NCBI GenBank assembly: GCA_022449545.1 | Contig: JAKUPN010000001.1 | Span: 1 to 64,000 of the forward strand | Source: Alphaproteobacteria bacterium | GTDB taxonomy: Bacteria > Pseudomonadota > Alphaproteobacteria > UBA6615 | Direction of reading: 5' to 3' | Length of the DNA stretch: 64,000 bases | Shown here: one piece after another, positions 19,915-33,674 of the stretch | How the letters are laid out: every line of letters starts with the position of its first letter | How positions within the stretch are numbered: the first letter of the stretch is position 1 | Notes under the pieces: generated by a model | The model's input: only the letters and a program-made list of their open reading frames with translations | Databases searched by the model: none | What the model was told of the DNA's origin: nothing | Program-made: the position numbers and the translations under genes

Positions 19915-20430
19915 TTATGCCTTTGACTCGTCTATGGGAACGCCTGCCTGATGTTTTGAAGTTCTTATGACTTGGAAAGTTTGTACGGTGCTAACATGTG
20001 TAACACCTGTTAAACGCGTTGTAAGCTCATTTTCATGATAAGTATTTTGCGCTACAATTCTTAACATAAAATCGCCGCCACCTCTTATCATGTCGCACCT
20101 TCGCACTTCCGGCCATGAACCTACTTCAGACTCGAATTCAGCTAGAACCTCTCCTGCTTGACTATTAAGCCCTACTAATGCGTGGAAAGAGACTTCATAG
20201 CCTAAAAGCTCTCCGTCCAACTCTGCATGATAGCCTTTTATATAACCAGCTGCTTCAAGTGACCGAACTCTACGTAGGCAAGGAGGTGCCGAAATCCCTG
20301 ACAGACGCGCCAACTCTACATTGGTTATACGACCATCATCACGTAAGTTACGGAGAATTCGTTTATCGATAGAATCGATTTTAGCTTTTTTTCTACTTTT
20401 AAGATCGCTTTGATTAGAAATTGTTGTCAT
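19915..20430 (-). CDS. Lrp/AsnC-family transcriptional regulator
   Basis: A 171-residue regulator with an N-terminal winged HTH (DSIDKRILRNLRDDGRITNVELARLSGISAPPCLRRVRSLEAAGYIKGY, about 19-67) and a C-terminal RAM/AsnC effector-binding domain with the CDMIRGGGDFMLRIVA segment. Members sense amino acids and control their metabolism. The start at 20430 is favoured by an AAGGA site upstream; an earlier in-frame Met would add ten residues. It diverges from the ELM1-containing operon, 167 bp away, so it may regulate that operon; this is inference from position only. Confidence 0.93.
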   Translation of the reverse strand: MTTISNQSDLKSRKKAKIDSIDKRILRNLRDDGRITNVELARLSGISAPPCLRRVRSLEAAGYIKGYHAELDGELLGYEVSFHALVGLNSQAGEVLAEFESEVGSWPEVRRCDMIRGGGDFMLRIVAQNTYHENELTTRLTGVTHVSTVQTFQVIRTSKHQAGVPIDESKA

Positions 20431-20597
20431 GAACAATATTTCCTTAGAATTTTTATACAATAACTATAAACCAACATAGTAATCATCTAACTTAATCGCA
20501 TATATTAAGATTCAATTGACATCTATGCAGATGCTACCAAATTGAAATAATATTTCAAATGAAACAATCCACCGAATTATTATAAAAAAGAGATAAT

Positions 20598-21593
20598 GTG
20601 AGCAATTCGTCAAATTTAAACAAAGAATTAAAATCTATGAAAACATGGATCCTCACTGATGGACAGAAGGGTATGGTTAATCAATGCCTTGGCCTTACCT
20701 CTGCTTTGGGCATATCCGCATTTTCAAAAGATATCAATTTAAATATTCCTTGGAAATGGCTACCACCGTCATTAACTCCTAAACAATTTTATATTATATC
20801 AGACTATAAAAATTATATATCACCCCCATGGCCCGATTTACTTATTGCAACTGGTCGTAAATCGGTTGCTCCAGCATTAGCAGTTAAAAAAGCCAATAAC
20901 GGAAAAACTTTTTGTGTGCAAATCCAAAATCCGGGAGCTTGTTATAAACGTTTTGACACGGTTGTTGTTCCCTTTCACGACAAAATAAGTGGAGATAATG
21001 TAATTAGCACCTTGGGCTCACTACATGGCGTAACCCCAAAAGTATTAGATGAAGCAAAACAGAGATTTCTGGGCGATATAGCAAGTATACCAAGGCCACT
21101 AGTTACCGTTTTACTTGGCGGTAGCAATTCGACTTATAGAATGAACAGAACCATCAGTAATAAAATAGCAAGTGACTTATTACATCTTTGTTCTTCAAAA
21201 GGCTATGGTCTGGCTATAAGCAGTTCTCCTCGCACTCCACTAGAGACAATAAAGATAATAAAAGACCGACTGACTGACAAAATTAATGAAAAAAAAGTAT
21301 TTTTTTGGTATGGAAACGGCTCTAACCCTTATATGAGCTTTCTGGCACATGCCGACGCTATACTTATAACAAGTGACTCTGTTAATATGATAAGCGAGGC
21401 TTCAGCGACAGGAAAACCCATTTCTGTACTTCATCTACCAAACGCTTCTAACAAATTTAATAGATTTCACACAGCCATGAATCAGGCAGGTGTAACAAGG
21501 CCATTTAAAGGGGATATAGAAAGTTGGTCTTATAAAATACCTGATTATATGAAAGATGTTGCGTCCGAAATATTAATTCGTATGGACAAATAG
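20598..21593 (+). CDS. ELM1/DUF1022-family protein
   Basis: A 331-residue member of the mitochondrial-fission-ELM1 / DUF1022 family, whose bacterial roles are unknown. Recognisable segments are WILTDGQKGMVNQCLGLTSALG near the N-terminus, PDLLIATGRKSVAPAL, VQIQNPG, FDTVVVPFHD, VTVLLGGSNSTYRM, and the C-terminal ADAILITSDSVNMISEASATGKPI followed by NKFNRFH. The two-lobed Rossmann-like organisation and the SD-N-EA segment resemble GT-B glycosyltransferases, a clan this family is grouped with. The start is a GTG; an ATG 13 codons later (20637, MKTWILTDG) is equally plausible. It is the first gene of a four-gene same-strand run. Confidence 0.85.
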   Translation: MSNSSNLNKELKSMKTWILTDGQKGMVNQCLGLTSALGISAFSKDINLNIPWKWLPPSLTPKQFYIISDYKNYISPPWPDLLIATGRKSVAPALAVKKANNGKTFCVQIQNPGACYKRFDTVVVPFHDKISGDNVISTLGSLHGVTPKVLDEAKQRFLGDIASIPRPLVTVLLGGSNSTYRMNRTISNKIASDLLHLCSSKGYGLAISSSPRTPLETIKIIKDRLTDKINEKKVFFWYGNGSNPYMSFLAHADAILITSDSVNMISEASATGKPISVLHLPNASNKFNRFHTAMNQAGVTRPFKGDIESWSYKIPDYMKDVASEILIRMDK

Positions 21594-21663
21594 ATTGTAT
21601 GAAAATGCATTCGTGCACAAAATTGCTCTTTGCATTTGTCCCTAGCCAGTCTAATAGAGAGTT

Positions 21664-22281
21664 ATGAACGCCCTAGACTTAAATGCAATAGAAATAGCTA
21701 AACCAATATTTGATCCTTTTGAACATGTGATCGTTCCGGAAGTTATTTCTAAAACGCACTTATCCTCCGTTATAGACGAATTTCCTGAAGTAAATAAATC
21801 TGGTAGTTTTCCAGTTTCTGATGTCAAATGTGGACCAAATTTTAAAATTTTAATGAAAGAGTTAAACTCTGAAATATTTGCTAAAAAAATAGGCTCCAAA
21901 CTTGGAATTGATTTATCTAACAAACCTAGAATGATTACAATTAGAGGTTATTGCAGACCAAGTGACGGCAAAATACACACCGACTCGAAAGGAAAATTAG
22001 TCACAGTCCTGATATACCTCAATTCTTCTTGGCAAAAGGAAGGCGGCCGGTTAAGGCTTCTCTATAATAATCACGATATGGAAAATTTTGCTGCTGAAGT
22101 GCCCCCTTATCAAGGCTCTATGGTAGCCTTCGCTTGCCATCCACATTCCTGGCACGGCCATCGTTCCTATGAAGGGAATAGAAAGATGATTCAATTAAAC
22201 TGGGTTGTTAGTCGAAGTTACAAAATACGTGAGGAACTAAGACATAATTTGTCTTCTCATTTCAAAAAGTTTTTCAGCTAG
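21664..22281 (+). CDS. 2-oxoglutarate/Fe(II)-dependent dioxygenase
   Basis: A 205-residue double-stranded beta-helix oxygenase. The iron triad is His105 and Asp107 in HTDSKG and probably His164 or His166 in HPHSWHGHRSY; Arg173 is in place to bind the 2-oxoglutarate carboxylate. Further family segments are RGYCRPSDGKIHTD and LVTVLIYLNSSWQKEGGRLRLL, as in prolyl-hydroxylase-like enzymes of this size. An AGAGAG ribosome site precedes the ATG. It lies 70 bp after the ELM1 gene and 19 bp before the 662-residue gene, so a shared transcript is likely. The substrate is unknown; small-molecule or glycan modification would fit. Confidence 0.85.
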   Translation: MNALDLNAIEIAKPIFDPFEHVIVPEVISKTHLSSVIDEFPEVNKSGSFPVSDVKCGPNFKILMKELNSEIFAKKIGSKLGIDLSNKPRMITIRGYCRPSDGKIHTDSKGKLVTVLIYLNSSWQKEGGRLRLLYNNHDMENFAAEVPPYQGSMVAFACHPHSWHGHRSYEGNRKMIQLNWVVSRSYKIREELRHNLSSHFKKFFS

Positions 22282-22300
22282 CCCTTAGCAGAGAGATTTC

Positions 22301-24289
22301 ATGGCTCTGAACATAAATACTTTTTCTAATATAACTGGTGGGTTACCTTTCTTTAAGGCAATTGGTCATCCTGACGCCTCAAATAAAATTAAAACTATAA
22401 TGAGTGAGTTAGGTAAAGATTGTCCAATAGCAGTCTATGACCCACATGGTCACGCTACGACATTCTCAGAGATATACGAACTTAGCCTCTTAAATATTGT
22501 TGGAGTGTTTGTCCAGGATATCAAAGATATAGATAAAAAAACCCTAGGAAAAACAACTAAGCCTATCACCGAACTCCACTCTGTTGAATATGACGTCCTG
22601 TTTATAGTTGCCTTTGACACGAAAAAACTAAAGAAAGATATTTTTAATCTCGTCCCTCAAGGAAAAAAGATTGTGACACTGGATGAAGCGAGAATAAAAA
22701 ATGAATATCTTAGCCATAAGTCGAAGTACTTAGATCCACTAAATTTTGCAACCAATCTTGCATGGTTCCGTGATGAAAAGGATGAAAATAATAAAGCCCT
22801 TCACACACGTCTAACAACCGCAAACTATTGGAACAGATATGGAGCTAATGATGTAACTTTAAGTTTTATACTATTTGATCAGAGCGGTTCTATAATAGCA
22901 AACTGGGAACAACCCTTACCCGCATCACCATCAAGTATAATTGTTGATAGCACAGATGTAAGAAATCGCTTTAATCTGGATGATTTCAATGGACAGCTTT
23001 TTATACATGCGATCGGTATTAAAGGACATGATAACCTAAAGTATGCCTTAGACATATATGGGACCTCTCCTGAAAACCTATCCTGTACACATGATGCAAA
23101 TTCCTGGCCCGCCGATATTTACGCAGGACTTCCTGCACCTAATAATGATGAAAACGTTATTTTATGGATTCAAAATAGTCATCCTTGTAAAATACCTCGA
23201 AAAACAATCAGTATAAATATTATGGGCCGAAATTCTTCTAAAGCGTTTTTAGATGAAGAAATTCCTCCTTATGCAACATACCCTCTGGATACATCTAAGT
23301 TGCTTAATGATGCTGAGTGGCCTGATCAAATAGAGATAAACGCTGGTAAATATTTCGTTCGCCCACGCTATGAAATTACTAAACAGAGAAAAGGGCTAAC
23401 TTCTCAAAGGCGGGTAGCTCATGTAAATATTCAACGTACTGATTTAATACCGAACCCATTAATTTCTAAAATTAGTAATTTAATGGGAAAAGGTTTCCTT
23501 TTGCCAGCTCCTGTATTGCCTACAGATAGATACAATTCTGTAATCCTGCCAACACCAATGTCTACTTCACAAAACAAATTGCCAATTAAATTATATATTT
23601 ATGATCAAACTGGAACTGAAATAGGGAACCATAAATTTGGTGAAATAAAACGTTCGGAAAGTGTATTCCTTGATGTTGGCCCAATAACTAAAGATAGTTT
23701 GAAGAGTCAGGCTGGTCACATGGAATTAGTGTATGACCATGAGTTTTCAACTGAGGCAGTAGATGGGTGGTTGCACGCTTTATTCCGGTATGAAGATAAG
23801 CTAACAGGTCATATTGCAGAATCTAGTTTTGGCAGCCATATATTCAATACTCTTTTAACACTGAATGGAGAACCGCAGTCTTATAGCGGCACTGCACCAG
23901 GACTTTCTACAAGGTTGTTCCTTAGAATTGCACCCAGCATGGGTCTCCCTGAAATCGACACTGAGGGAGACGGAGCAGAGACTTTCTGTCATCTCATATA
24001 TCCTTCTTCAGCTCCCTGGAATCCGTTCTCAGAAACTGAAATTATTTTAATTTCCGGCGATGGCAAAGAAATATCAACGAAAAAAATAAAAATTAATTGT
24101 GGCGGCTCAAATTATTGGCTTCTTTCTGAAATGTTCAGCAAAAATGAAAGAAGAAAAGCTTTCGGCTCCGATGATTCTACGCCCGGATACGTAGTCATAA
24201 AGGATTCTACCTGCAGATTATTCGGTTATCATGGCCTAATAACTGTGGATAAATCAGCATTTAGTTTAGATCATTTGTTCGGATTTTAA
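22301..24289 (+). CDS. uncharacterised 662-residue protein with repeated beta-sandwich-like modules
   Basis: I do not recognise this protein. Residues about 38-132 look Rossmann-like (strand PIAVYDPHGH, helix, VGVFVQDI, then YDVLFIVAF and KKIVTLDEA). The rest seems built from four similar beta-rich modules near 184-255, 285-357, 425-500 and 560-650. Each has a strand, a D-x-x-G-like turn (FDQSGSII, YDQTGTEI, SGDGKEI) and a hydrophobic edge strand. A notable segment is HDANSWPADIYAGLPAP (264-280). There is no signal peptide or membrane segment, so it is predicted cytoplasmic. An AGAGAG ribosome site precedes the ATG. It overlaps the start region of the next gene, so tight operon coupling is likely. 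Confidence 0.75.
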   Translation: MALNINTFSNITGGLPFFKAIGHPDASNKIKTIMSELGKDCPIAVYDPHGHATTFSEIYELSLLNIVGVFVQDIKDIDKKTLGKTTKPITELHSVEYDVLFIVAFDTKKLKKDIFNLVPQGKKIVTLDEARIKNEYLSHKSKYLDPLNFATNLAWFRDEKDENNKALHTRLTTANYWNRYGANDVTLSFILFDQSGSIIANWEQPLPASPSSIIVDSTDVRNRFNLDDFNGQLFIHAIGIKGHDNLKYALDIYGTSPENLSCTHDANSWPADIYAGLPAPNNDENVILWIQNSHPCKIPRKTISINIMGRNSSKAFLDEEIPPYATYPLDTSKLLNDAEWPDQIEINAGKYFVRPRYEITKQRKGLTSQRRVAHVNIQRTDLIPNPLISKISNLMGKGFLLPAPVLPTDRYNSVILPTPMSTSQNKLPIKLYIYDQTGTEIGNHKFGEIKRSESVFLDVGPITKDSLKSQAGHMELVYDHEFSTEAVDGWLHALFRYEDKLTGHIAESSFGSHIFNTLLTLNGEPQSYSGTAPGLSTRLFLRIAPSMGLPEIDTEGDGAETFCHLIYPSSAPWNPFSETEIILISGDGKEISTKKIKINCGGSNYWLLSEMFSKNERRKAFGSDDSTPGYVVIKDSTCRLFGYHGLITVDKSAFSLDHLFGF

Positions 24290-24303
24290 TGAGGAGAATT
24301 ATT

Positions 24304-25035
24304 ATGGGCGAAAAAGAATCTTTGATTAAAACTTCTGAAGGTGAAATGTATGCATTTTCTGCTTGGCCAGCAGAAAATGGGCCTCATCCAGTGGTTATAA
24401 TGTATATGGATGCTCCTGGCATCAGAGAAGAACTGAAAAATTTTGCAAGGAGATTTGCCTCAATGGGTTATTACACTCTTTTGCCTGACCTGTATTATAG
24501 ACTAGGTGATATTCGTTTTAATCTAAAAAATCGTAATGACAAAATGGGAGAAATGATATTTGCTGCATGGCATAGCCTAAGCAATGATCTAGTGGCTAAT
24601 GACACTTCAGCGATGCTAGACTTTTTGAGTGATGATCCCAATGCTTCTGATGGACCTATGGGTTGTGTTGGTTACTGTATGAGCGGGGCTTTTGTGGTCA
24701 CAGTTGCAGGATCGTTCCCCGATAGATTTTCAGCGATTGCGTCTCTATATGGTGTTTGGATAGTAACAGACAAAGATGACTCCCCTCATCTTCTAGCAGA
24801 TAAATTTAAGGGAGAATTTTACTTAGCCTTCGCCGAACACGATCAGTGGGTAGGGGATAATGTTATCCCAGACCTACAGAATGCATTAACCAAAAACGAA
24901 ATAAAACACGAAATAGAAACCTTTCCTGGAACAGAACATGGTTATTCCTTCCCTGAAAGAGATGTGTATAACGAGGGTGCAGCAGAAGCTACTTGGAAAA
25001 AGATAGAAAACCTCTATGCCCGTGTGCTTGGATAA
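24304..25035 (+). CDS. dienelactone hydrolase-family protein
   Basis: A 243-residue alpha/beta hydrolase of the dienelactone hydrolase type. The triad is Cys125 in GYCMSG, Asp180 in AEHDQWV and His212 in GTEHGYSFP, giving the cysteine-nucleophile arrangement typical of the family. Members open lactone rings or cleave esters and thioesters; the substrate here is unknown. The ATG at 24304 has a GAGGAG ribosome site; another ATG 15 bases upstream overlaps the stop of the 662-residue gene. It ends the accessory operon, and trxB follows 112 bp later. Confidence 0.9.
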   Translation: MGEKESLIKTSEGEMYAFSAWPAENGPHPVVIMYMDAPGIREELKNFARRFASMGYYTLLPDLYYRLGDIRFNLKNRNDKMGEMIFAAWHSLSNDLVANDTSAMLDFLSDDPNASDGPMGCVGYCMSGAFVVTVAGSFPDRFSAIASLYGVWIVTDKDDSPHLLADKFKGEFYLAFAEHDQWVGDNVIPDLQNALTKNEIKHEIETFPGTEHGYSFPERDVYNEGAAEATWKKIENLYARVLG

Positions 25036-29624: not shown

Positions 29625-30926
29625 CTATCTTTTATCTTCTAATTCCCTAGGTTTAGGACCACCGGTAGCCCAGTCTAGTAACTCAATAGTATGCACTATT
29701 GGAACATTTAATCCCCGCGCAAGTTGCGAAATGCATCCAATGTTTCCAGTTGCAACATAATCTGGATCAGTAGCGCATATTTTTTCTGTTTTTCTTACTC
29801 TTAATTGTTCAGCTATTTCGTTTTGGAGAATATTATATGTTCCTGCAGAACCACAACACAAATGACCTTCTGCTGGTTCACTGACTAAAAAACCAGCAGA
29901 TTCCAAAAGTTCTTTAGGCTGATTTTTTATCCCTTGACCATGCTGCATTGAACAGGCCGAGTGATAAGTTACATTTGATTTATGAATCTCCTCATTCTTA
30001 GTAAAATCAATATCAAGAGAATATAAAAACTCTGATATATCACAAGCCAAATTCGACACCTTTTCAGCTTTCAATGCGTATTCAGGTTCATCACGGAACA
30101 TAAAAGCATAGTCCTTTATCTGAGTTCCACAGCCACTAGTATTAACTACTATAGCATCCAATTCATTATGTTGAATTTCAAGCCACCATGCATCAATATT
30201 AGCCTTGGCTTGCTGACGGGATAAATCTGCCTTACCTAAATGGTGAACCAAAGAACCACAACACCCACTATTTTTTGAAATAACAACTTCTATCCCTAAT
30301 CGTGTGAGGATCCTCACAGTTGATTCGTTTATTTGAGGAGACAATACGGTCTGAGCACAGCCACTAAGTAACGCCACTCTTTTGTTTTTATCTCCTTTAG
30401 CCTGATAGATTCCCTGAAAATCAATTGTAGAATTTTTTGCCAAACTAATTGGAGCCAAATCAATCATATGTCGAAAATATTTGGGAAATAAAAAACGAAC
30501 TGGTCGAACAAGAATCGCTAACCGAATAGCTATACGAAATCTTGACGGATAAGGAATAGTCATTGAAAGACTCCACCTGACTAACCTATCCAAGAATGGA
30601 CGAGTATACGTGTCTTCTATGTAACGACGTCCATGGTCAACCAAATGCTGGTAGTGAACAGCAGAAGGACAAGTAGTCATACAAGACAAACAGGACAGAC
30701 AACGATCAATATGGGTTACAACCTCTTTAGTGGCAGGTTCCTCAGATTCGAGCATCTGCTTCATCAAATAAATTCGTCCCCTTGGACTATCAAGCTCGTC
30801 TCCAAGTAGAACATAAGTAGGACAGGTTGCTGTGCAGAAGCCGCAATGTACGCAGGAGCGCAAAATATCGTTTACAGCAGAAGTATCTGAATCAGATAGC
30901 TGATGAATTGAAAAATGAGTTTGCAT
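29625..30926 (-). CDS. glcF: glycolate oxidase iron-sulfur subunit
   Basis: GlcF passes electrons from the flavin subunits of glycolate oxidase to the respiratory chain. The 433-residue protein has two ferredoxin-type [4Fe-4S] sites, Cys25-28-31-35 (CVHCGFCTATCP) and Cys76-79-82-86 (CLSCLSCMTTCP). Two CCG-domain repeats follow (SGCCGSLVHHLG and LCCGSAGTYN). It is the last gene of glcD-glcE-glcF, starting 4 bp after glcE. Glycolate is a major phytoplankton exudate, so the operon fits a marine heterotroph. Confidence 0.96.
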   Translation of the reverse strand: MQTHFSIHQLSDSDTSAVNDILRSCVHCGFCTATCPTYVLLGDELDSPRGRIYLMKQMLESEEPATKEVVTHIDRCLSCLSCMTTCPSAVHYQHLVDHGRRYIEDTYTRPFLDRLVRWSLSMTIPYPSRFRIAIRLAILVRPVRFLFPKYFRHMIDLAPISLAKNSTIDFQGIYQAKGDKNKRVALLSGCAQTVLSPQINESTVRILTRLGIEVVISKNSGCCGSLVHHLGKADLSRQQAKANIDAWWLEIQHNELDAIVVNTSGCGTQIKDYAFMFRDEPEYALKAEKVSNLACDISEFLYSLDIDFTKNEEIHKSNVTYHSACSMQHGQGIKNQPKELLESAGFLVSEPAEGHLCCGSAGTYNILQNEIAEQLRVRKTEKICATDPDYVATGNIGCISQLARGLNVPIVHTIELLDWATGGPKPRELEDKR

Positions 30927-30930
30927 CGAA

Positions 30931-32181
30931 CTATACCTCCATGTACATACGTCCGGGGTTTAATATTCTTTGCGGATCGAAGCTATTTTTTACTCGGGAA
31001 GTTAATTTTGCTAACGCTAAAGTTTGAGGATGAAAAACATCAGTTTGGGATCTAATATTATCATCTGCTCTTACTAAAGTTGCATGACCTCCACCATTCG
31101 TATTAATTACGTCTCGTATAATAGTAGCACCTGCATCATTCAAATATTCGTCTAATTTGTACCAAACGAGTCCCCCGCCCCAATCATAAAATGCGCAGCC
31201 AGCTATTACCTTATTAATTTTTTCAACAATAGTTGGAGCCATAGAAGGAGTTATAGACAAACGCCAAAGCGGCTCCTTCATTTCATTATATGGGTTAACA
31301 TCACAAACGTCTCTCCAAAAAACAACAGAGTTTTCTTTATCTACCTCTTCTATAACACCAAAGTTATTAAGAAGCTTTTTTAGAGACTCGCAACGAGCAA
31401 CAACTGATGGCCTAAATCCCTCGATTCTCATTGCTGTAACCGAGCTATCTTCGTTCCTTATATCGCTTAGAGATAAACGAGCAGCAGGCCTAACAGGCAA
31501 ATGAGCAGCGCCTGATACTTCATGGCTTGAATTTATAGCGGAGGACAAGGCTCTCTGAGCTGTCTTTTCATCGAGACCAAAAATTAAGAGTGTTGTCATA
31601 CTTTCAGGAGCCGGAAGAACCTTGACCGTTATTTCAGTTAGCGCCGCTAATGTACCATAAGATGCGGTCATTAATTTTGACAAGTCATATCCTGTAACAT
31701 TTTTTACAACCCGACCACCGCTTTTAATATATTCCCCACGCCCGCTGACACCTTTTATACCAAGAACGTGATCTCTTGCAGACCCTGCTTTTATTCGTCG
31801 AGACCCCGTGAGATTGCAGGCTATAAGACCTCCGAGGGTTCCTCCCTCATGACCATAAAGTTTTGCCATATGGATAGGTTCAAAAGCCAATTGCTGCCCT
31901 TCAGATTCTAGTAGCTCTTCTATATCGGAAACAGGTGTACCTGCTCCGGCAGTAAGAACCAATTCATCTGGTTCATATAAAGACACACCCTTTAGTGAAG
32001 ATAGATCTACCGTATGACCTATAACTAGATTACCTTTGTTACCATGTTTTCCTAGAATCGGCCGGCCTAATCCACGTTTAGTGGCTAAACCTGCAATTTC
32101 GAGCGGAATTTCATCGGCTATAGCCCATTTTACTATATCCTCAAGTTGGCTGGAGTCTGAAGGTTTTAAAACCTCAGTCAT
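30931..32181 (-). CDS. glcE: glycolate oxidase FAD-binding subunit GlcE
   Basis: GlcE is the second flavin-binding subunit of glycolate oxidase, required together with GlcD and GlcF. The 416-residue protein has an FAD_binding_4 domain with YEPDELVLTAGAGTPVSDIEELL, HEGGTLGGLIACNLTGSRRIKAGSARDHVLGIKGVSG and GGRVVKNVTGYDLSKLM, and ends in the family's DPQRILNPGRMY. It sits between glcD (5-bp gap) and glcF (4-bp gap), so the three are one operon. Confidence 0.95.
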   Translation of the reverse strand: MTEVLKPSDSSQLEDIVKWAIADEIPLEIAGLATKRGLGRPILGKHGNKGNLVIGHTVDLSSLKGVSLYEPDELVLTAGAGTPVSDIEELLESEGQQLAFEPIHMAKLYGHEGGTLGGLIACNLTGSRRIKAGSARDHVLGIKGVSGRGEYIKSGGRVVKNVTGYDLSKLMTASYGTLAALTEITVKVLPAPESMTTLLIFGLDEKTAQRALSSAINSSHEVSGAAHLPVRPAARLSLSDIRNEDSSVTAMRIEGFRPSVVARCESLKKLLNNFGVIEEVDKENSVVFWRDVCDVNPYNEMKEPLWRLSITPSMAPTIVEKINKVIAGCAFYDWGGGLVWYKLDEYLNDAGATIIRDVINTNGGGHATLVRADDNIRSQTDVFHPQTLALAKLTSRVKNSFDPQRILNPGRMYMEV

Positions 32182-32186
32182 TAGTT

Positions 32187-33674
32187 CTAAAACCGTGGTA
32201 TGTCAGGAAAGGGGACTTTGCCTCGATGTATATGAACTCTTCCTAGTTCAGCACATCTATGTAGGGTAGGAAAAACTTTTCCCGGATTTAAGATCTGGTG
32301 TGGATCAAATGCACACTTTACACGTTGTTGTTGATTTAAATCCATTTCAGAAAACATGACGCTCATTAGATCTCTTTTTTCAACCCCTACTCCGTGTTCT
32401 CCAGTAAGAACTCCTCCAACTTCAACACATAGCTTTAGAATGTCAGAACCAAAGTTTTCAGCCCTTTCTAGTTCGCCTGGATTGTTAGCGTCATACATAA
32501 TTAAAGGATGAAGATTTCCGTCACCAGCATGAAACACGTTGGCCACTTTAAGACCATATATTTTAGACAACTCTGACATTCGATCTAGTACCTCTGGCAA
32601 TTTTGAACGTGGTATAGTGCCATCGACACAATAATAGTCTGGAGTTAAACGTCCAATTGCTGGAAATGCTGCTTTACGCCCAGCCCAAAATTGTTCCCGC
32701 TCTTCATCATTTCTACTTACCCGTAAAGAAACTGCTCCTTGAGAATTAGCAATTTCTTTTACTCGATCAATCAAAAAATTTACTTCTTCGAATGGACCGT
32801 CTAGTTCAACAAGAAGCAACGCGCCAACATTCAAGGGATAGCCCACTTTAACAAATGCTTCAGCCGCTTCAATTGCTGGACCATCCATCATTTCCATACC
32901 TGCTGGTATAATGCCATCTGCTATAATATTTGCGACGCATTTACCTGCTTGTTTAGAACTATCAAAACCAATCATTAGTGCGTTCGCAGAAGTTGGCTTA
33001 GAGAGAATTCTAACAGTAACTTCAGTGATAATTCCCAAAAGTCCTTCTGACCCAGTCATAAGACCCAGTAAATCATAACCTTCACTATCCATATGTTTGC
33101 CACCCAATGAAATAATCTCACCATCAGCTAGAACCATCTGCAACCCAAGAATATTGTTAGTTGTTAGTCCATACTTTAGACAATGGACACCCCCAGAGTT
33201 TTCTGCGACGTTACCACCAATTGTGCAAGCAATTTGGCTAGAAGGATCTGGGGCATAGTAAAACCCATGTCCCTTAACCGCTTCTGAAATGGCTAGATTA
33301 GTAACCCCCGGCTGAACGCGTGCACAACGATTATCATAATCTATTTCTAATATTTTATTAAATTTTCCTAAACCCAAAGTTATACCATCAGCAAGAGGAA
33401 GAGCTCCTCCAGACAAAGAAGTGCCGGCTCCTCTTGGAACAATTTTAACATTATTTTTGTAGCAATAAGACAGCACTTGGCTAATCTGTTCTACAGTTTC
33501 CGGCAATACAACTATCATAGGCACCTGCTGATAAGCGGTCAGTCCATCGGACTCATAGACGGATAACTCCTTTTTCTCTGAAATTATGCTTCCGTTAGGA
33601 ACAAATTTCATTAAAGAAGAAATTATTTGTGTTCTACGCTCAATAACTGCTTTATCCGGTTCAGGCATCTTCAT
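32187..33674 (-). CDS. glcD: glycolate oxidase subunit GlcD
   Basis: GlcD is the catalytic FAD subunit that oxidises glycolate to glyoxylate (and D-lactate in related enzymes). The 495-residue protein has the PCMH-type FAD domain (IVPRGAGTSLSGGALPL; YAPDPSSQIACTIGGNVAENSGG). The FAD-oxidase C-terminal domain has VFHAGDGNLHPLIMYD, GVLTGEHGVGVEKRDLM and NPGKVFPT. It starts at an ATG with AAGGTC upstream and leads the glcDEF operon. No malate synthase or glcG gene is adjacent. Confidence 0.96.
   Translation of the reverse strand: MKMPEPDKAVIERRTQIISSLMKFVPNGSIISEKKELSVYESDGLTAYQQVPMIVVLPETVEQISQVLSYCYKNNVKIVPRGAGTSLSGGALPLADGITLGLGKFNKILEIDYDNRCARVQPGVTNLAISEAVKGHGFYYAPDPSSQIACTIGGNVAENSGGVHCLKYGLTTNNILGLQMVLADGEIISLGGKHMDSEGYDLLGLMTGSEGLLGIITEVTVRILSKPTSANALMIGFDSSKQAGKCVANIIADGIIPAGMEMMDGPAIEAAEAFVKVGYPLNVGALLLVELDGPFEEVNFLIDRVKEIANSQGAVSLRVSRNDEEREQFWAGRKAAFPAIGRLTPDYYCVDGTIPRSKLPEVLDRMSELSKIYGLKVANVFHAGDGNLHPLIMYDANNPGELERAENFGSDILKLCVEVGGVLTGEHGVGVEKRDLMSVMFSEMDLNQQQRVKCAFDPHQILNPGKVFPTLHRCAELGRVHIHRGKVPFPDIPRF

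Follow-up and report, generated by a model that had tools for sequence, protein, structure and literature searches.

Positions 20598 to 25035 of the window, a 64,000-nucleotide stretch of the alphaproteobacterial contig JAKUPN010000001.1, contain four genes on the plus strand. They encode an ELM1/DUF1022 protein, an Fe(II)/2-oxoglutarate (2OG) oxygenase, an unnamed protein of 662 amino acids, here called P662, and a member of the dienelactone hydrolase family (Table 1). A first-pass annotation had described them as a four-gene operon beside a divergent Lrp-type regulator. Re-examination recovered all four open reading frames on one strand, with intergenic gaps of 70, 19 and 14 bp, the ribosome sites and the divergent regulator as described, and the family names given to ELM1, the oxygenase and the hydrolase were borne out by matches to PF06258, PF13640 and PF01738. 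Both ELM1 and the oxygenase fall into established families; the P662 family is undescribed, and its link to ELM1 was absent from the literature searched.

Purine-rich stretches resembling ribosome sites precede the oxygenase (ATG 21664), P662 (ATG 22301) and the hydrolase (ATG 24304). The fourth reading frame is open from 24289 to 25035; the gene likely starts at ATG 24304, 14 bp past the P662 stop codon and preceded by GAGGAG. The start of ELM1 is ambiguous, either GTG 20598 or ATG 20637.

Table 1. Genes, motifs and protein domains of the P662 locus, in window coordinates.
Feature	Position	Strand	Basis or remark
Lrp/AsnC-family regulator, divergent	19915..20460	-	PF13404/PF13412/PF01037
ELM1/DUF1022 protein, KdoT-like GT-B glycosyltransferase (probable)	20598..21593	+	PF06258, E 2.4e-91
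Ser-Pro-Arg-Thr codons, counterpart of the KdoT SRRT donor-binding motif	21225..21236	+	
Fe(II)/2OG oxygenase	21664..22281	+	PF13640, E 4.7e-10
P662, unnamed 662-aa protein	22301..24289	+	Rossmann-like N-terminus and four beta-sandwich domains
P662 Rossmann-like domain, residues 1-145	22301..22735	+	Invariant His23-Pro24 and Asp47-Pro48
P662 D1, residues 146-262, beta-sandwich	22736..23086	+	Model, internal repeat, His168...Asn175
P662 D2, residues 263-385, ASRAH-type fold	23087..23455	+	Invariant Trp269; Asn292 in 36/37; Foldseek match to 1nc7
P662 D3, residues 386-505, beta-sandwich	23456..23815	+	Model, internal repeat
P662 D4, residues 533-662, ASRAH-type fold	23897..24286	+	VIA Z 11.2 to 1nc7
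Dienelactone-hydrolase-family gene	24304..25035	+	PF01738, E 1.2e-38

Gene order around P662

Homologues of the window genes were located in 80 regions collected by place and 80 named loci. The core counts refer to 112 distinct P662 loci with sufficient flanking sequence on both sides, and the count for the hydrolase to 117 loci. ELM1 lies upstream of P662, within 1.5 kb and on the same strand, in 80/112 loci, and the oxygenase does so in 61/112; trxB follows P662 within 3 kb in 68/112. The median gaps, measured to the homologous part of each protein, are 68 bp between ELM1 and the oxygenase, 36 bp between the oxygenase and P662, and 88 bp between ELM1 and P662 where the oxygenase is missing. 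The conserved set consists of three genes, namely ELM1, the 2OG oxygenase and P662.

Only 12/117 loci have a dienelactone hydrolase gene within 3 kb downstream of P662, and most of these belong to the family of the window genome. In sister genomes it is one of several variable genes that separate P662 from trxB. The hydrolase is a lineage-specific neighbour that looks co-transcribed and lies outside the conserved unit. Of the operon originally described, the cluster of ELM1, oxygenase and P662 has thus been retained, while these counts rule out a unit of four genes. It is very improbable that all four genes form a secondary-metabolite or lipid pathway in which the hydrolase is essential: the 14-bp spacing and the strong ribosome site, present both in the window and in its nearest relative, would suit such a pathway, whereas the rarity of the gene downstream of P662 and its position among unrelated insertions in sister genomes speak against it.

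Twenty genomes of the class that lack P662 served as a control. In 19 of them trxB comes after ELM1, and in most cases greA and lrp lie upstream and lysR lies downstream. An oxygenase match beside ELM1 occurs in one at most, where it is weak (27 bit). Because it is kept in 19/20 of these genomes, we regard greA-lrp-elm1-trxB-lysR as the ancestral order. This order lacks the oxygenase and P662, which therefore form an additional module placed between elm1 and trxB; the two genes travel together, since an oxygenase so rarely adjoins ELM1 where P662 is absent. The Lrp regulator occupies the same place in at least 19 of the P662-less genomes and in most P662-bearing ones. It belongs to the ancestral neighbourhood, and its control of the module is only putative.

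Three further observations concern this region. The weak oxygenase match is an open reading frame upstream of ELM1 (L236:3235-3954) and may be a remnant or an unrelated oxygenase. The ancestral order, seen in the P662-less loci L223-L242, is a deeply conserved neighbourhood of the class and a useful anchor for spotting insertions. In another locus (L078:8035-10945), genes for a PAP2 phosphatase and a PMT_2 (ArnT-type) glycosyltransferase lie between ELM1 and P662.

The ELM1 protein and the oxygenase

The name of the ELM1 family in Pfam derives from a plant mitochondrial fission factor; the fission role is specific to plants, and the bacterial members are glycosyltransferase-like. To our knowledge, no function of a bacterial ELM1 protein was known before late 2025. 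The ELM1-like protein A1S_2903 of Acinetobacter baumannii is required for the third 3-deoxy-D-manno-oct-2-ulosonic acid (Kdo) of the lipooligosaccharide core (PMC10936431), and this protein, KdoT, uses CMP-Kdo in vitro to add KdoIII to Kdo2-lipid IVA (PMC12856342). The literature searched for the DUF1022 family otherwise yielded one pan-genome study. Its activity needs the second Arg of the SRRT motif (R180), while the first (R179) is dispensable, and homologues restore the Acinetobacter core to differing degrees, with only partial replacement by the one from Rickettsia (PMC12856342).

The window ELM1 belongs to the same family (PF06258, KdoT being ELM1-like by InterPro), is of similar length, and matches profile positions 2-303 of 304. 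Comparison of the motifs, made by the residue numbers given in PMC12856342, shows that the window protein reads S-P-R-T, in which Pro replaces the first Arg of SRRT and the second is kept. This second Arg, Arg212 in the window protein and R180 in KdoT, is invariant in 122/122 ELM1 relatives; in the same relatives the pair His127-Asp128, which KdoT shares, is invariant, and Ser210 is invariant or nearly so. If translation starts at ATG 20637, the Asp of 'WILTDG' is residue 8, which by number corresponds to Asp8 of Acinetobacter KdoT.

Outside the Alphaproteobacteria, genes of PF06258 that encode an SRRT or SPRT motif sit in lipopolysaccharide (LPS) loci. ELM1 is found there beside a WaaA Kdo transferase, an O-antigen ligase and a UDP-glucose dehydrogenase (L281), beside a lipid A acyltransferase and a GT4 glycosyltransferase (L273), or beside an ABC exporter and a GT4 enzyme (L276). 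The window genome itself makes LPS, as indicated by the presence of WaaA and LpxC. Based on the KdoT studies, the invariant Arg, the neighbours in LPS loci, and WaaA and LpxC, we conclude that the window ELM1 is probably a KdoT-like glycosyltransferase of the LPS core, its exact donor aside. This agrees with the earlier assignment to GT-B glycosyltransferase-type proteins. The window protein differs from KdoT in the Pro of its motif and in its oxygenase and P662 partners, which are unreported in Acinetobacter. In the Acinetobacter cell, KdoT works together with a partner, GnaT.

Two different ELM1 genes, one with SPRT instead of SRRT, occur in one sugar-synthesis or LPS-type cluster outside the Alphaproteobacteria (L275:6923-11536 and L276:6200-10915), which suggests paralogues with different donors or acceptors.

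The oxygenase has a complete set of iron- and 2OG-binding residues (HxD...H and Arg; His105, Asp107, His164 and Arg173), each invariant or conserved at 99%, and PF13640 was detected in 14/14 of the relatives scanned. KdoO, the Fe(II)/2OG Kdo 3-hydroxylase of Burkholderia and Yersinia that converts Kdo to Ko, offers a functional parallel of such an oxygenase beside Kdo transfer, which is a parallel and not a test. The window enzyme differs from it, falling in PF13640: by hmmscan, neither it nor 13 relatives matched the KdoO family, and the Pfam scan gave only PF13640/PF13661. In a profile search of solved structures, the closest matches were the bacterial hydroxylases 9blq and 9ei6, followed by HIF and collagen-type (P4H) protein prolyl hydroxylases. 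The latter matches, together with the position of the gene next to P662, would fit a PHD/P4H-type protein hydroxylase that modifies P662 or ELM1; the module would then switch core synthesis in response to oxygen or 2-oxoglutarate. We consider this quite unlikely, as the oxygenase matches prolyl hydroxylases only weakly (E 6e-4 to 0.07) and over the metal-binding core alone, and is not obligatory, being missing in about half of the P662 loci.

Spread and structure of P662

P662 had no sequence match in Pfam, NCBIfam, PHROG, PADLOC or the PDB. Its family has not been described before and arranges domains of a known fold in a new way, and these empty profile searches place the protein outside any well-known family with an unrelated role. 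At least 566 loci encode it (alignment query, one genome per species), with carriers that include Azospirillum, Nitrospirillum, Thalassobaculum, Pelagibius and Oceanibaculum. It was found in 21/24 genomes of the order, all of one family, in 87/385 sampled genomes of the class Alphaproteobacteria, and in 4/398 genomes sampled across the phylum, all four of them Alphaproteobacteria. At the sensitivity used, no relatives were found in plasmids or viral contigs. A phage or defence origin was rejected on this ground and by the lack of a P662 match among PHROG and defence models; the defence-model scan matched a generic 2OG model only, and none for ELM1, P662 or the hydrolase.

Members of the family are 640-660 residues long, and most share 39-57% identity with the window protein. 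Among 37 diverse sequences (39-88% identity), 61 columns are invariant; these span all domains and often hold His, Asp, Arg or Trp. The family is strongly constrained, given so many invariant columns at such low identity. The gene is broken by in-frame TGA codons in one locus (L125, G185:C55) and reduced to a C-terminal remnant with a TAG codon in another genome (G355:C18:29128-29385). Both cases point to independent losses of P662, with ELM1 kept. Four records that bear the names Anaerolineae, Hydrogenophilales or Rhizobium sp. (L140, L142, L167 and L181) contain P662 loci of the kind seen in Rhodospirillales-like bacteria, and are probably misnamed genome bins.

The AlphaFold model of P662, built with 58 relatives (pLDDT 88.4, pTM 0.90), consists of a Rossmann-like N-terminal domain followed by four beta-sandwich domains, D1 to D4. 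Among PDB structures, only TM1070 (1nc7) matched a single domain of the full model convincingly, with a Foldseek probability of 1.00 and a TM(target) of 0.63 over residues 268-381; the VIA Z-score of D2 to the same structure is 4.5 over 106 residues. Residues 386-662 were also folded alone (pLDDT 86, pTM 0.86). In this separate model, D4 matched 1nc7 with a Z-score of 11.2 over 110/116 residues and the Anabaena ASRT protein (2ii8) with 8.6; these were the top two of 995 chains, and the next, unrelated chain scored 5.3. Weak repeats within P662 also emerged from profile comparison, pairing D1 with D3, D1 with D4 and D3 with D4 (P about 0.001). The full model gave further Foldseek matches, to complement C5, transglutaminase and GH2 enzymes; these had low TM-scores, reflected generic stacking of sandwiches, and were not used.

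Both reference structures belong to the ASRT/ASRAH superfamily of beta-sandwiches, which are inferred to bind sugars and occur as homotetramers, dyads or tetrads (PMC2739507). P662 resembles this superfamily in the fold of D2 and D4, in the multi-copy arrangement and, within D1 and D2 only, in certain residues. The ASRAH hallmarks, a Trp where strand 1 begins and an Asn where strand 2 ends, are both present in D2 (Trp269 in 37/37 sequences, Asn292 in 36/37), where Trp289 (34/37) takes the position of the ligand-contacting Cys of ASRT. D1 has the Asn (Asn175, 35/37), which together with His168 (31/37) is spaced as His25...Asn32 of ASRT; D3 and D4 are without the hallmarks. P662 differs in that it is fused to a Rossmann-like domain, has no significant profile similarity to ASRT, and does not carry the SHExxCxxN ligand signature of the ASRT-like family, of which D1 matches only the His and the Asn. 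Profile-profile alignment gave no support for homology to ASRT, although comparison of folds did. The relation is therefore one of shared fold, with homology unproven, and since the full signature is missing we keep P662 out of the ASRT-like family. Judged from the models, P662 appears to be built of ASRAH-type folds without being a member of the ASRT family. The first-pass annotation could not name a function for the central protein; it indeed falls in no family, but its fold is recognisable.

The window P662 has no signal-peptide-like start or N-terminal hydrophobic stretch, and no membrane span is characteristic of the family. A secreted or membrane-bound protein was rejected on this basis, and the sequence is in line with a cytoplasmic location. 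Within the superfamily, P662 would represent a cytoplasmic multi-domain form, with four sandwiches and without an amidase or lipoprotein signal.

The closest structural neighbours of the Rossmann-like domain are proteins of the Rex family (Z 7.7 over 98 residues). This score is within the range of common arrangements, and a Rex-type NAD domain is at most a candidate; no classical nucleotide-binding glycine motif was seen in the P662 sequence. The domain could nevertheless be catalytic, with the sandwiches binding the substrate, in which case P662 would itself catalyse a step in the same envelope pathway, perhaps as a hydrolase, epimerase or transferase. The many invariant His, Asp, Arg and Trp columns, and the invariant His23-Pro24 and Asp47-Pro48 in this domain, would be expected of an enzyme, whereas the absence of any profile match to an enzyme family, the common type of Rossmann-like arrangement and the missing glycine motif are not. 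We judge an enzymatic P662 to be rather unlikely.

Proposed role of the three-gene set

We tentatively propose that ELM1, the 2OG oxygenase and P662 may constitute an undescribed module of cytoplasmic LPS inner-core assembly, a plausible reading that we favour with reserve. In such a module, homology and motif suggest that ELM1 would add a sugar of the inner core, with Kdo as the likeliest candidate. The oxygenase, present in about half of the lineages, might hydroxylate the core or donor sugar, or a protein of the module. The ASRAH-type sandwiches of P662 would bind a sugar, a nucleotide sugar or a core intermediate, its Rossmann-like head may bind a nucleotide, and the protein could serve as a sensor, scaffold or acceptor-presenting partner that gates or assists ELM1, rather than as a second transferase. 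Intracellular ASRAH proteins have been proposed to act on neighbouring enzymes through sugar binding, and an action of P662 on ELM1 would agree with this; the reliance of KdoT on GnaT would be a parallel. The dienelactone hydrolase would be a local passenger. The role of ELM1 is well grounded, while those of P662 and the oxygenase are what we infer. With regard to the glycan, lipid or secondary metabolite originally envisaged as the product of the locus, the context favours a cell-envelope glycan, the LPS core, and a secondary metabolite found no support.

The arrangement in one divergent genome ties P662 directly to LPS export: there, P662 stands on the same strand after lptF-lptG-lptD and a gene for a PTPS_related/YfhO-like membrane protein (L118:6001-13861).

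Several observations weigh against the proposed module. The adjacency of ELM1 and P662 is partly an inherited position, because the surrounding gene order is ancestral. P662 and trxB are kept together without ELM1 within 1.5 kb in 22 loci, and ELM1 works without P662 in most Alphaproteobacteria. The substrate of the oxygenase may not be a sugar, since its relatives of solved structure include protein hydroxylases. The ASRAH match of P662 is one of fold, the hhalign probability having been at most 2.3 for every domain against 11 ASRT sequences (PF07100 members).

The points on gene order raise the possibility that the cluster is a by-product of inheritance, with P662 and the oxygenase inserted by chance between elm1 and trxB in an ancestor and functionally unlinked to ELM1. 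The ancestral neighbourhood and the 22 loci would be explained in this way, as would the similar frequencies of ELM1 upstream and trxB downstream of P662, trxB having no plausible role in the module. The gaps, however, are short and operon-like, and in eight loci ELM1 and P662 have stayed together with lrp and trxB gone (L103, L104, L105, L108, L109, L117, L123 and L142). The oxygenase-P662 pair is retained in 10/32 loci that lost ELM1. Moreover, genomes with P662 nearly always have ELM1 (86/87, versus 228/298 genomes without P662; Fisher 6e-8, uncorrected for kinship). We regard a purely inherited arrangement as unlikely.

A more specific version of the LPS-core module, which we hold to be doubtful, is that P662 would represent a new class of cytoplasmic core-assembly factor. 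Its four ASRAH domains on a Rossmann-like head would hand over or gate the lipid-linked core, or sense CMP-Kdo or a hydroxylated product, for ELM1/KdoT, and the 2OG enzyme would make a hydroxylated inner-core sugar.

A link between P662 and the ELM1 transferase was not found in the literature searched, and we know of no comparable partner of a Kdo transferase. ELM1 is present in about four of five sampled alphaproteobacterial genomes, from free-living as well as intracellular lineages, and P662 in about a fifth. Binding of core sugars or CMP-Kdo by P662, if it occurs, would make this protein the first accessory factor known for an ELM1-type Kdo transferase, and would provide a testable cellular role for the ASRT/ASRAH fold, the ligand of which has been open since 2009. 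The findings also offer annotators proper names for two gene families whose current labels are 'mitochondrial fission protein' and 'hypothetical protein'.

Elsewhere in the window, three open reading frames on the minus strand (29625-33674) resemble a glycolate oxidase set with FAD subunits and an iron-sulphur subunit; judged by sequence only, this set appears ordinary.

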